Shown: one piece after another, positions 33,201 to 36,565 of the stretch | Layout: every line of letters begins with the position of its first letter | Position numbering within the stretch: the stretch's first letter is position 1 | Assembly: GCA_017619975.1 (NCBI GenBank) | Contig: JAFZRH010000001.1 | Location: forward strand, 1 to 36,565 | Direction: 5' to 3' | From: Lachnospiraceae bacterium | Lineage (GTDB): Bacteria > Bacillota > Clostridia > Lachnospirales > Lachnospiraceae | DNA: 36,565 nt | Translations under genes and position numbers: made by a program | Notes under the pieces: generated by a model | Databases searched by the model: none | Seen by the model: only the letters and a program-made list of their open reading frames with translations | Told to the model about the DNA's origin: nothing

Positions 33201-33735
33201 GTGAGGTCCGGAAGCCGTCGAAGAAATGCATGAAGGGCACGTGTGAGCGGATGGCGGAAAGATGCGCCACGCCGGCCAGATCCATGACCTCCTGCACGCT
33301 GCCGGTCGAGAGCTGCGCGAAGCCGGTCTGGCGGCAGTTCATCACGTCGCTGTGATCGCCGAAGATCGACATGGCGTGCGTGCCGACGGTCCGGGACGCG
33401 ACGTGCAGCACGGCCGGCTGGCGGGTGCCGCTGATGCGGTGCAGCACCGGGATCATCAGCATGAGGCCCTGGGAAGAAGTGAAGGAAGTGGCGAGCGCGC
33501 CGGCCTCGAGCGCACCGTGGACCGCGCCGATGGCGCCGGCCTCGGACTGCATCTCTACCAGAGAAACCGTCTGCCCGAAGAGGTTCTTGCGGCCGTTGGC
33601 CGACCATTCGTCGGTCTTTTCGGCCATGGGAGAGGAGGGCGTGATCGGATAGATCGCGGCAACCTCGGAGAAAGCGTAGGCCACGTACGCGCAGGCCTCG
33701 TTTCCGTCAACGACCATGAATTTTTCGTCTGCCAT
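30211..33735 (-). CDS. nifJ: pyruvate:ferredoxin (flavodoxin) oxidoreductase
   Basis: 1174 residues, the usual length of the single-chain homodimeric enzyme. It oxidises pyruvate and CoA to acetyl-CoA and CO2, reducing ferredoxin. Domains in order: N-terminal pyrimidine-binding part (VDGNEACAYVAYAFSEVAAIYPITPSSPMAE), transketolase-C-like domain, EKR-type middle part, two 4Fe-4S motifs (CAQCNRCSFVCPHA and CTGCGSCVSVCPLKG), proximal cluster cysteines (CAGCGETPYAKL, GCSQAWG) and thiamine-diphosphate site (GGDGWAYDIGFGGLDH, DTEVYSNTGGQSS). I chose 33735 because MADEKFMVVDGNEA is the family start and AAAGGAA precedes it; the frame runs to 33924 only by chance, past the promoter. Central to anaerobic sugar fermentation. 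Confidence 0.97.
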   Translation of the reverse strand: MADEKFMVVDGNEACAYVAYAFSEVAAIYPITPSSPMAEKTDEWSANGRKNLFGQTVSLVEMQSEAGAIGAVHGALEAGALATSFTSSQGLMLMIPVLHRISGTRQPAVLHVASRTVGTHAMSIFGDHSDVMNCRQTGFAQLSTGSVQEVMDLAGVAHLSAIRSHVPFMHFFDGFRTSHEIQKIRVIPYEEFDKLLDRDAVKAFREAALNPEHPTLRNTVQNPDVYFQFREANNRFYDGLPEVVEGYMQKINEITGEDYHIFNYYGAPDAERVIVAMGSVSGTVRETAAQLNAQGEKVGYLQVHLFNPFSAEAFRAALPKSVKKIAVLDRCKEMGAAGDPLYLAVCAAFANRKDAPYIVGGRYGLSSKDTTPEQIKAVFDHIKTDEPWGNFSVGIEDDVTFRSLPVGPRFEIPHKKMVACKFWGLGSDGTVGANKNSIKIIGQNTDMYTQAYFEYDTKKSFGITRSHLRFGDEPILGSYLVSAADFIACHNQSFLRKYDIVSELKEGGTFLLNCGWTEEMLDSKLPAAVKKVLAEKKAQFYIIDANRLARELGLGDHASMVLQSAFFRLADIIPFEEALGLMKKAAEKTFGKKGDEVVNMNLAAIDQGASLLKKVEIPAGWADPAPDAEDPAARERAAGDPAFIRNILRPINDLKGDLLPVSTFVGYEDGTMPLGTTAYEKRGIATRLPVWDPAVCAQCNRCSFVCPHAVLRPYLLNEEEKNAAPEGFKTAKAKGADGLYFSLQVSDMDCTGCGSCVSVCPLKGKALKMEQVTEELKLTPAWEYGLTISDKEKFGITTVKGSQFRQPLCEFSGACAGCGETPYAKLLTQLYGDRMYWANATGCSQAWGAAMPSIPYTKNKAGRGPAWSNSLFENNAEFCLGICLSVKQQRAKVRSYVEELKGLLPEGNAVAGAIGAWLEAFGDVVQSQAASEALKEALNAESFTGRAAELKELIFRNADHLAKHSVWMYGGDGWAYDIGFGGLDHVIAMGEDINILVVDTEVYSNTGGQSSKATPLGAVAQFQASGKKSSKKDLGRIMMSYGNCYVASVAMGADMNQLMKAITEAEAFPGPALIVAYAPCINHGIKAGMSEAQAEMKRAVEAGYWPLYRFDPSKPDHKFTLDSKAPTMAYQDFLAGEVRYASLYRTFPENAKTLFAKAEKEAAARYEAYKNMEE

Positions 33736-33794
33736 GATACGGATTCCTTTGGTTAAAGTATTTTTCGCAAAACACGGACTTGCATGTCTGACAT

Positions 33795-33824
33795 AGTATA
33801 GCGCGGATCGGACAGGAATTGCAA
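33795..33824 (-). promoter_or_regulatory. promoter of the PFOR gene
   Basis: Minus strand TTGCAA (33819-33824) and TATACT (33795-33800) with an 18-base spacer. The -35 is the same as that of the opp promoter. The transcript would start near 33788, giving a leader of about 50 bases. Confidence 0.7.
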
Positions 33825-33918
33825 GAGTGTTGCGGAAAACGTCACAAGAAAAACAGGGATCCGAGGAATGTTCAGCGCAGAGACGGAAGGATAGACAACG
33901 GATGCGGATACAGTATTT

Positions 33919-33941
33919 AAACAAATTGTTGTGATTTGTTT
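33919..33941. promoter_or_regulatory. operator-like inverted repeat
   Basis: AAACAAAT (33919-33926) and ATTTGTTT (33934-33941) form a perfect 8-bp inverted repeat with a 7-base gap, in the AT-rich region between the divergent PFOR and surface-protein genes. It is upstream of both promoters, so it could be an activator or repressor site; the protein is unknown. Confidence 0.4.
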
Positions 33942-33978
33942 TGTAATTTTAAAAGAATAAACTTTATATCAAATTTTC

Positions 33979-34008
33979 TTGACAAAACATCGAGGGGGGG
34001 GGTAATAT
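33979..34008 (+). promoter_or_regulatory. consensus promoter with a G9 tract in the spacer
   Basis: A perfect TTGACA (33979-33984) and TAATAT (34003-34008) are separated by 18 bases. The spacer contains nine consecutive Gs (33994-34002) directly abutting the -10 box. Loss or gain of one G gives a 17- or 19-base spacer, which should change promoter strength sharply. The leader to the ATG at 34155 is about 140 bases. Confidence 0.8.
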
Positions 34009-34154
34009 TGAACAAATAAATGCGGCGTGTTGGACTGCAGGATACGTTCTTTGTTTTATTTAATTATTTTGTCAATGAATCGCTAAAAGAGAAGTGCTGT
34101 ACTGGACAGGCATTCTCTGTTTCTAAACAGATATATCATGAAAGGGAAAGAAGT

Positions 34155-35039
34155 ATGAAGAAAAAAATCACGGCATTTTTCATGGCAGCGGTCATGCTGC
34201 TGGGACTTGTCCATGCACCGCAGGCGGTCATGGCAGCAAATGAAGAGGCGCTTTCCTCTCCGGTGTCTGAAGCGGCTTTGCCGCAGTCAGATCCGGTCGC
34301 GCTTGTTACACCGGATGACAAGAGCACTTCCGAAGGATTTGAACTTAATTTGACGGAAGAAGAATTTCATGCTCTGCAGCAGAATGCAGCAGAAAAGAAT
34401 CTTCCCGCACCGCCTGTTCTTCCTTCAGAATATATCTCGGAAGCTGGTATCAGCCGCGCAAAGTGGCTTCAGAATCTGGAGCTACTCTTTGATCTGACAG
34501 TCAATCCGGAAGAGTATTCGGATAATTACTATACGGATCTTTCGGAAGAGTATGAATATTATGATGCTGTGATGATCGCGGTATACTTTGGCCTTCTTGA
34601 GGAAGATCCGGGAGAAGAGATTCGTCCGGATGATGCAGCCACCCGAGATTTTGCGGCGCACACGCTGAACTGCCTTTTGGGAAGGGAGAAAGAAGCGGCG
34701 AATTATGCTTTCAGCGATGTGTCCGCCTGCGAATGGCCGGATGATGCACAGGTTGCGGTGGAACTTGGCTGGTTAAGCTTGGTTTCAAACAAGTTTTCTC
34801 CACAGCAGACCCTGACTGTAAGCGAGATCAATTCGGCGATTAGTTTGGTAGAAGCTTATTTGGCAGAACAAACTGCTGGTTCCGGAAGCGGATCGTACAG
34901 TTTTGCTGACTGGGTCATTCAGATTCCTGCCACGGCGCAGGTCAGCGCTTCCTACGATGATGCGATGGAAGTTCTGACGGTATATATCGCGAATTATAGC
35001 GGAACCATCAATGCGGGAGATACCTTTGTCTTTTTTTGA
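34155..35039 (+). CDS. surface protein, N-terminal part (SLH-like), ends at a frameshift
   Basis: 295 residues in this frame. The signal peptide MKKKITAFFMAAVMLLGLVH ends at AVMA-AN. After an acidic stretch, residues from about 95 to 240 look like degenerate S-layer-homology domains: SRAKWLQNLELLFDL, YTDLSEEYEYYDAV, IAVYFGLLEEDPGEEIRPDD with AATRDFAAHTLNCLLG, FSDVSACEWPDDAQVAVELG. These would bind the cell wall. The ATG at 34155 follows AAAGGGAAAG; an in-frame ATG at 34020 has no ribosome binding site. The frame stops at 35037-35039, just after a T7 tract (35031-35037). Dropping one T restores a frame open to the window end. More AT-rich than most of the window. Confidence 0.8.
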   Translation: MKKKITAFFMAAVMLLGLVHAPQAVMAANEEALSSPVSEAALPQSDPVALVTPDDKSTSEGFELNLTEEEFHALQQNAAEKNLPAPPVLPSEYISEAGISRAKWLQNLELLFDLTVNPEEYSDNYYTDLSEEYEYYDAVMIAVYFGLLEEDPGEEIRPDDAATRDFAAHTLNCLLGREKEAANYAFSDVSACEWPDDAQVAVELGWLSLVSNKFSPQQTLTVSEINSAISLVEAYLAEQTAGSGSGSYSFADWVIQIPATAQVSASYDDAMEVLTVYIANYSGTINAGDTFVFF

Positions 35040-36565
35040 AGATGACTTTGCTTATGTTTACGGCGCGGCTTCTGTGAAAAAGCAGGACGGTGTTTACAGC
35101 ATTGTAACGGAAGATGCGCCTGCCGGTGCGATTCTTTCCTTCGAGTATGACGGAATTGTTTCTCCCGAAATATTCCCTGTCGTTCAGGATGAAAACACAT
35201 ATACCATTCAAACCGTTGAAGCAGGCCTGATTCAGTTGGGGGCTCTGCGGGCTGTAAAATCCGGGGAACATGAGATCAGCTTTGTTCGTGACTGGAGTTC
35301 TATCATTGAAGGCCTGGAAGGCAGCGTTTCAGTAAAGGTATCAGATATTCAGATCGAAAAGAAGTTTATCGGCATTCAGAAATATTTTGTTTTGACCGGT
35401 GTTTTGGATTTCGCCATTAATCTGGAACTGACAATTGCCGAAGTATCCGTTCCGGTTCCGATGGGCAGCATACAGATTGGTACGGTTGGCTGCATCGGTC
35501 TCGCTTTAAACCTGGATGCTTCTGCAAAACTGGCCTTTACGAGCAAATACACCTTTAGGATCGGATTGGATTATTGTCTTGGAGAGATCACGCTGATCAA
35601 ACAGATGCGCATACAGGGAAGCAGTCTGTCGGTGGAGGGAGAAGCTTCGCTCACTGTCGGGCTTAATGCCCGGCTGGATTTCGGTGCAAACGGACACGCC
35701 AAAGCTTCTTTCGGCATCGGACCGAAGGCAAAGGTGACTTATAACCGATATATCAGCGGAACGCCGGCGACCTGCCTGAACATCGCGGCCTACCTTTACT
35801 TGGGGCTGGAAATCGAGGCAAAAATAAAAGAAATCATAACTTCGGCAACCCTTATCGATTACAAATATGAATATGAGATCTGGGGGGAAAAGAACAGTCC
35901 GCTTAAGTTTGTGGAACATCGGGAAGACGGGATAACGGTTGATGCCTGTACCCGCGAACACGATACAGGGACGCATTCTGACGGATACTTTGTCCCGAAA
36001 TATACCACACCGGCAGATTCCCGCCGCTATGCCAGCAGCAATCCGAATGCAGGCAGCAGTGGAAGAGGCGCGAACGGAAATACGTTTACGATCTGGGAAA
36101 CTTCAGATAACGGAGACGGTACGGTCACCATTACGGGATACAACGGGAACGCAAGCGTACTGTTTATTCCCAATACCATTGACGGAAAAACAGTATCGGT
36201 GATCGGTGCGGATGCCTTCAAAGGCAATACTGCCTTGGTCAGCGTAACGATTCCGGAGACGGTTGAGAAAATCGGAAGCGGTGCTTTCAGAAATTGCACG
36301 TCGCTGTCGTCGGTGATGATTAACGGGACGTATTTAACGACTACGGGATATACTGATTTATATCATTATGGGATATTTACGGGCTGTTCCAGTTTACAAA
36401 CGGTTCAGCTGATGAACGGGATCCAAAAGATCCCTGCCGGCATGTTCTACTATGCCCCGATAAGAACCTTTGAAATACCGAGCTCAGTGACGTCAATTGA
36501 AACAGACGCCTTTTGTCACAGCTCATTGGAGAGCATCCAGCTGCCGGCCGGAATTACAGGAATCG
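35038..36565 (+). CDS. surface protein, C-terminal part with BspA-like leucine-rich repeats (partial)
   Basis: This frame is the direct continuation of the surface protein after removal of one T at 35031-35037. It is open for 509 codons to the window edge. I translated it in full and found no stop. It has no start codon of its own near the junction. The first 300 residues are beta-rich, repetitive and unassigned (for example SLSVEGEASLTVGLNARLDF). A Ser/Gly/Asn linker follows. From about 36070 come BspA-type LRR_5 repeats: SVIGADAFKGNTALVSVTIP, KIGSGAFRNCTSLSSVMI, IFTGCSSLQTVQL, SIETDAFCHSSLESIQLP. Such proteins sit on the cell surface and bind host or fibre ligands. The end lies beyond the window. 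Confidence 0.8.

Follow-up and report, generated by a model that had tools for sequence, protein, structure and literature searches.

A G tract between the -35 and -10 hexamers of a putative surface-protein gene in a Lachnospiraceae bacterium, and a class of similar promoters in the family

Results

Anatomy of the locus

The window (the whole stretch of DNA analysed, 36,565 nucleotides of contig JAFZRH010000001.1, assembly GCA_017619975.1) carries near its end a surface-protein gene on the plus strand. It is separated by a divergent intergenic region of 419 bases from a minus-strand pyruvate:ferredoxin oxidoreductase gene (TIGR02176), for which we assume the ATG that ends at 33735 as the start. 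The features of the locus are listed in Table 1.

Table 1. Features of the promoter and of the surface-protein gene, in window coordinates.
Feature	Position	Strand	Basis or remark
-35 hexamer TTGACA	33979-33984	+	Sequence and sigma-70-type scan
G9 tract, second half of the spacer, touching the -10	33994-34002	+	Sequence
-10 hexamer TAATAT, 4/6 to consensus	34003-34008	+	Sequence and scan
Presumed 5' leader	34009-34154	+	Sequence
Purine-rich, ribosome-site-like stretch	~34140-34150	+	Just 5' of ATG 34155
First ORF, 294 residues, start ATG 34155	34155-35039	+	One SLH domain, signal-peptide-like start
T7 tract, reading frame lost	35031-35037	+	ORF translations
Second ORF, other frame, rest of the gene, BspA-type leucine-rich repeats	35011-36565	+	PF13306

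The initial annotation had reported a TTGACA and a TAATAT 18 bases apart with nine Gs running up to the -10, and on re-reading these coordinates are exact (spacer 33985-34002). The pair, recognised by consensus only, is the sole plus-strand sigma-70-type match in 33400-34400 and agrees with 10 of the 12 consensus bases; from its position, transcription would start at about 34015. One TTGACA/TANNNT pair was found in the whole window versus 0.52 expected. A promoter-like pair alone is therefore unremarkable, and the argument depends on the tract sitting inside the pair. A G9 was also placed at random in the single-letter-shuffled intergenic region; out of 20000 trials, 12 put it between a TTGAC and a TANNNT at a suitable spacing, and chance placement of the tract in the spacer is unlikely.

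In the search for a leader RNA element no Rfam match reached its family's own threshold (the best noted was RsmY at 33823-33941, E 0.11, 16.7 bits against a threshold of 57), and the fold of 34014-34160 was no different from that of shuffled sequences. Upstream of the -35, in AT-rich surroundings (77% AT in 33900-33978), lies a perfect 8-base inverted repeat, AAACAAAT/ATTTGTTT, at 33919-33941, a possible operator or UP element.

The product had been described as a surface protein with a signal peptide, SLH-like and BspA-like parts. The signal-peptide-like start (judged by eye) and a single SLH domain (PF00395, E 7.2e-8) are indeed present in the first ORF, but the BspA-type repeats (E 2.7e-23) lie in a different frame past the T7 tract, and the contig ends within them. 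Both parts of the protein are thus encoded, yet not in one open reading frame: the first ORF terminates at TGA 35037-35039, the T of which is the last base of the T7 tract. Since the frame is lost here, the assembled gene may fail to make the full protein; the break may be a second slippage site, the mark of a pseudogene or an assembly error.

In searches of 200 family genomes and of 16 genus genomes, a single genome had the gene, both times the source genome itself, and a scan of genome contigs for homologues gave none. Two congeners matched only the end of the neighbouring pyruvate:ferredoxin oxidoreductase. With no homologue of the locus in the genomes searched, the arrangement was examined as a class.

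G runs in the source genome and its genus

Tracts of eight or more Gs occur at three places in the source genome (five overlapping matches), and two of the three lie just upstream of a -10-like hexamer, namely the G9 of the studied locus and a G8 on contig C8, there two bases off. Markov models of orders 1-4, fitted on 56,969 bases with the three tracts included, predict 68, 7, 13 and 21 such runs. Because the expected number varies with model order, a general shortage of G runs in this genome is suggested but unproven.

The C8 tract (G000:C8:15996-16003; L002 1501-1508) is followed by TG-TATAAT, with TTGTTT upstream at a spacer of 16 by eye. It precedes an ABC-transporter-like ATPase gene and forms a second candidate G-tract promoter in the same genome. 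One congener (G213) has an orthologous-looking gene, the upstream stretch of which, as far as viewed, shows no G tract and thus says nothing on length variation. At the third place (G000:C66:6369-6377; L005 1501-1509) a G9 lies 3' of a TATACT -10-like box, in what is presumably the leader of a uvrA-like gene; it may influence that leader or a GTG start in frame.

Across 16 genomes of the source genus, G7+ tracts before TANNNT, counted without a -35 condition, gave 21 matches versus 30 in the control. Among 23 distinct G8+ tracts viewed in congeners, taken from a longer list, two were spacer-like by eye (L034 and L036). The genus itself shows no excess, and the evidence for a class therefore comes from other Lachnospiraceae genera.

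A class of G-tract spacers with strand and position bias

In the family, the pattern TTGACN{1,13}G7N{0,4}TANNNT was found in 69 of 397 Lachnospiraceae genomes, with 111 matches that a hand count reduces to 102 distinct sites, versus 8 matches for a control of the same letters reversed. The C-tract version gave 10 matches in 9 of 397 genomes versus 13 for its own control, though a few of the C-tract sites resemble real promoters by eye. With 111 against 10, the excess belongs to G on the coding strand. A genus of 77 genomes, picked for the many sites in two of its members, gave 100 matches (95 distinct, 11 of the 100 also counted in the family set) in 39 genomes, versus 7 in the control. The match totals for the family, for both genera and for the C tracts are hand sums which include overlapping readings of one site. 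Chance is rejected as a full account of the class.

The tracts are 7 to 14 bases long. Most family and genus sites with G8+ (112 of 135) have the tract directly against the -10; the named-genome and viral sets described below were found with patterns that impose this abutment and spacers of 15-20 or 14-20, and both are for that reason kept out of the count. Of 289 class sites, 14 fall inside ORFs of more than 150 residues. Readings with a spacer outside 13-22 were dropped (25 of 265).

Matches were also found beyond the family. In a phylum sample a stricter rule, TTGACAN{5,12}G8TANAAT, was matched in 2 of 398 genomes, just 15 of which belong to the same class and 5 of these to the same family, so that other Clostridia are hardly sampled; the same rule is passed by 34 of 82 parsed family sites, in 26 genomes (hand count). 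A scan of named genomes, run without a control pattern, gave at least 119 stretches, with other Clostridia, Bacilli, Treponema, Helicobacter and Moraxella among the matches listed. Of the 80 titles listed from these, 64 are Bacillota and 13 Lachnospiraceae; some of these assignments rest on genus placement, and one of the 64 belongs to the Anaeroplasmataceae, which some place elsewhere.

Spacer lengths avoid the optimum

Most telling is the distribution of spacer lengths. Where a G tract is present, TTGACA/TANAAT pairs with spacers of 15, 16, 17, 18, 19 and 20 number 16, 46, 19, 36, 73 and 21 (n=211), versus 4, 9, 32, 7, 4 and 1 (n=57) for pairs from the same stretches that lack a G6 (chi-square p 1e-13). 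The usual optimum of 17 is found in 19 of 211 G-tract pairs versus 32 of 57 ordinary ones, and the G-tract pairs peak at 16 and 19, the latter being commonest. A spacer of 17 stays scarce when each homologous group contributes a single site (16 of 177), and also within three sets taken separately (5/42, 1/26 and 9/103). The studied locus, at 18, is among the intermediate members.

Sorted by tract length, the spacer peaks at 16 for G8, at 16 and 19 for G9, at 19 for G10 and at 20 for the less numerous G11. By these peaks it is the spacer, more than the tract, that seems to be held. This avoidance of 17 is new relative to the initial annotation. In the simplest interpretation, the promoters as seen in assembled genomes rest off their best spacing, as would be the case for contingency genes that are mostly low.

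MerR-type operators are dyads within the spacer. Such an operator was sought at the 289 class sites, the studied locus included, and rejected: the longest perfect inverted repeat in any spacer has arms of at most 4 bases, and 221 sites have none of 3 or more.

Genes downstream are enriched in signal-peptide-like starts

The target bias is found in each set with a control, as assessed with a home-made signal-peptide rule and choice of gene start. The nearest downstream gene has a signal-peptide-like start at 48 of 69 sites in the family set versus 17 of 102 neighbouring genes (p 3e-12), at 70 of 99 in the named genomes versus 103 of 504 (p 9e-22) and at 12 of 22 in the first genus set versus 1 of 16 (p 0.002); these counts exclude 50 of the 289 sites, which have no downstream gene in the stretch, and count the control genes of loci with two sites twice. 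In the enlarged genus set, for which no new control was drawn, the figure is 40 of 63.

Pfam was run on 116 of 130 downstream proteins, the others being 13 homologues of scanned proteins and one short one. Among the 25 of 84 families listed, LRR_5, the BspA type, ranks first (10 of 116 proteins), followed by LRR_8 (9 of 116), DUF285, extracellular solute-binding protein and ABC transporter ATPase (5 each) and AAA_21 (4). The targets thus include cytoplasmic proteins as well.

Tract lengths vary within groups of homologous promoters

We compared 24 groups of homologous promoters and found more than one tract length in 13. For example, TTGACAGAAGGCA-G10-TAAAGT occurs in two genomes (G422 and G427) and its G11 version in a third (G425), the three being congeneric species. 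The spacer is unchanged in two of the 13 groups that vary (L182 and L354/L358), so their length differences need not come from slippage.

Among the 16 best pairs, at 75% identity or more, 6 show a tract change over 141 tract bases, versus 24 gap events in the remaining 2693 bases (odds ratio 4.9, p 0.003). Pairs at an identity of at least 0.91 have equal tracts in 5 of 7 cases, two of the five being copies within one genome, from which it follows that the assembled length is not fast-drifting. Judged from these alignments, tract length is labile over evolutionary time, though not wildly so.

A pair of paralogous promoters was seen within one genome (G078, L137 and L138). They are 96% identical over 248 bases, tract excluded; one has a G9 plus TG (spacer 20) and the other a G7 (spacer 16), and related proteins with signal-peptide-like starts lie downstream.

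Discussion

We consider it somewhat probable that the studied locus is a contingency promoter of the type known from porA and tp0126 and one of a widespread set of G-tract promoters. Replication slippage in the G9 would add or remove Gs and so change the distance between -35 and -10, and the changed spacer would make the promoter, which is of sigma-A type and serves a secreted SLH/leucine-rich-repeat protein, stronger or weaker. The G9 gives a spacer of 18; one G less would bring it to 17, the usual optimum, and one more to 19. The locus would belong to a large set of G-tract spacers, in Lachnospiraceae and in other bacteria, often placed before genes for secreted proteins. Since assembled members of the class tend towards spacers of 16 or 19, away from the optimum, the class would have a low resting state with the productive one only one or two slips away. 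We infer slippage as the cause, an effect on transcription and a locus that behaves like its class.

A phase-variable promoter had already been proposed in the initial annotation. The geometry, the surface-type target and a family class with variable tracts support this in part, whereas the source genus, where even a looser pattern gave no excess, does not. The weak -10 (4/6) and the lost reading frame also count against a contingency promoter at this locus.

An explanation that we hold to be rather unlikely is a fixed G-rich spacer, that is, a functional promoter feature tuned to weak or regulated strength with no switch. It could take the form of a constant G upstream of the -10, as in an extended -10, or of a G run whose winding shifts the best spacer. 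The strand bias (G 111, C 10) and the contact with the -10 (112/135) suit it: slippage needs neither, C tracts would also work, and neither the preference for G over C nor the -10 contact is explained by slippage. The spacer, rather than the tract, also looks tuned (G8 16; G9 16/19; G10 19; G11 20), and 5 of the 7 close pairs have kept their tract. A fixed spacer, however, should have one best length, whereas the spacers show two peaks and a dip at 17, and a shifted optimum would cover 18-19 but not the second peak at 16. Tract lengths of 7-14 that differ in 13 of 24 homologous groups do not fit it either, nor does the scarcity of G8+ runs elsewhere in the source genome (three places), the chance expectation for which is model-dependent. 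Extended -10 promoters have a favourable G just 5' of the -10. By analogy one might guess that a G run supplies such a G at any length.

It is improbable that the locus is decaying or misassembled, with the surface gene a pseudogene or the T7 call wrong and the G9 a leftover without a present role. The frame is lost at the T7 and the gene, truncated by the contig end, occurs in the source genome only among the genomes searched, but otherwise the locus retains a promoter, a ribosome-site-like stretch, a start resembling a signal peptide, the SLH domain and the repeats, and promoters of the class that it fits occur in 69 of 397 family genomes. Regulation by a MerR-like activator that bends an overlong spacer is hardly credible: 19 is the commonest class spacer, but 16 is also common and the studied locus has 18.

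The contingency promoter has well-described precedents, which we compare here as far as the available parts of the sources go. Phase-variable surface proteins of Clostridia found in the literature searched are switched by DNA inversion. Among them, CwpV of Clostridioides difficile resembles the studied locus as a surface protein in Clostridia. Its phase variation works by DNA inversion and not by homopolymer slippage. The literature searched, which left most subscription journals and all bioRxiv preprints outside, held no paper on G-tract promoters in Lachnospiraceae.

Closest in layout is tp0126 of Treponema pallidum, where a poly-G lies between the -35 and -10 of a surface-protein gene and transcription is best at a distance of 17 (PMC7864442). 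It differs in encoding a spirochaete outer-membrane protein and in that length variation and reporter effect were measured (PMC7864442). In porA of Neisseria meningitidis, as described in the same paper, transcription of a surface protein is under the control of a poly-G that lies between the two hexamers; unlike the studied gene, porA encodes a Gram-negative porin with demonstrated phase variation (PMC7864442).

A Gram-positive counterpart is PPA1880 of Propionibacterium (Cutibacterium) acnes, a putative adhesin gene with a G tract in the promoter spacer. Tracts of 11, 13 and 15 Gs go with reported spacers of 18, 20 and 23, and the protein is secreted only by the strain with a spacer of 18 (PMC3224659). 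In contrast to our case it is from an actinobacterium, its tracts are longer, strains were compared and the authors also allow a coding tract; the available part of that paper mentions no SLH/BspA-type target (PMC3224659). According to a later survey of P. acnes, tract variation follows clades, which suggests slow accumulation. In Bifidobacterium breve, also a gut commensal, a surface structure, the pilus, is switched by G-tract slippage, but there the tract joins two coding ORFs outside the promoter (PMC9187656).

The mechanism as such is thus already established; the possible novelty lies in the size and regularity of the class, of which the studied locus is probably a new example. We put forward, tentatively and as a distinct possibility, that Lachnospiraceae and related Clostridia use slippage-switched promoters family-wide. 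These would have a G run on the coding strand, in most cases right next to the -10, stand mostly before genes for secreted proteins and lipoproteins, and have their spacer held at 16 or 19, such that most cells are low and full expression is one or two slips away.

Bacteroides species have invertible promoters. If the proposal for Lachnospiraceae and related Clostridia is true, its promoters would be the homopolymer counterpart of these in the dominant gut Firmicutes, with a G-not-C, -10-adjacent rule added. If G-tract promoters do switch, many Lachnospiraceae species would vary their secreted proteins by simple slippage, and such variation is hidden in ordinary assemblies because these report one length. 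The preference for G over C, the abutment on the -10 and the avoidance of a spacer of 17 can be measured in existing genomes, which makes the idea testable in cultured commensals. Among these, Mediterraneibacter agrestimuris DSM 111629 has a member of the class at L192, before a gene without a signal-peptide-like start by our rule, and Schaedlerella arabinosiphila DSM 106076 has one at L199, the gene of which falls outside the stretch examined.

Two further observations concern viral contigs and repeated copies. The viral collection (IMG/VR) contains eight stretches with G-tract spacer promoters, two of which, on contigs from one sample (L288 and L289), are 93% identical over 146 bases, tract excluded, and carry a G8 and a G10. 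In one bacterial genome (G227) the same G7 promoter sequence is found at three places (two of them L121 and L122), and one copy precedes a small protein that resembles a bacteriocin.
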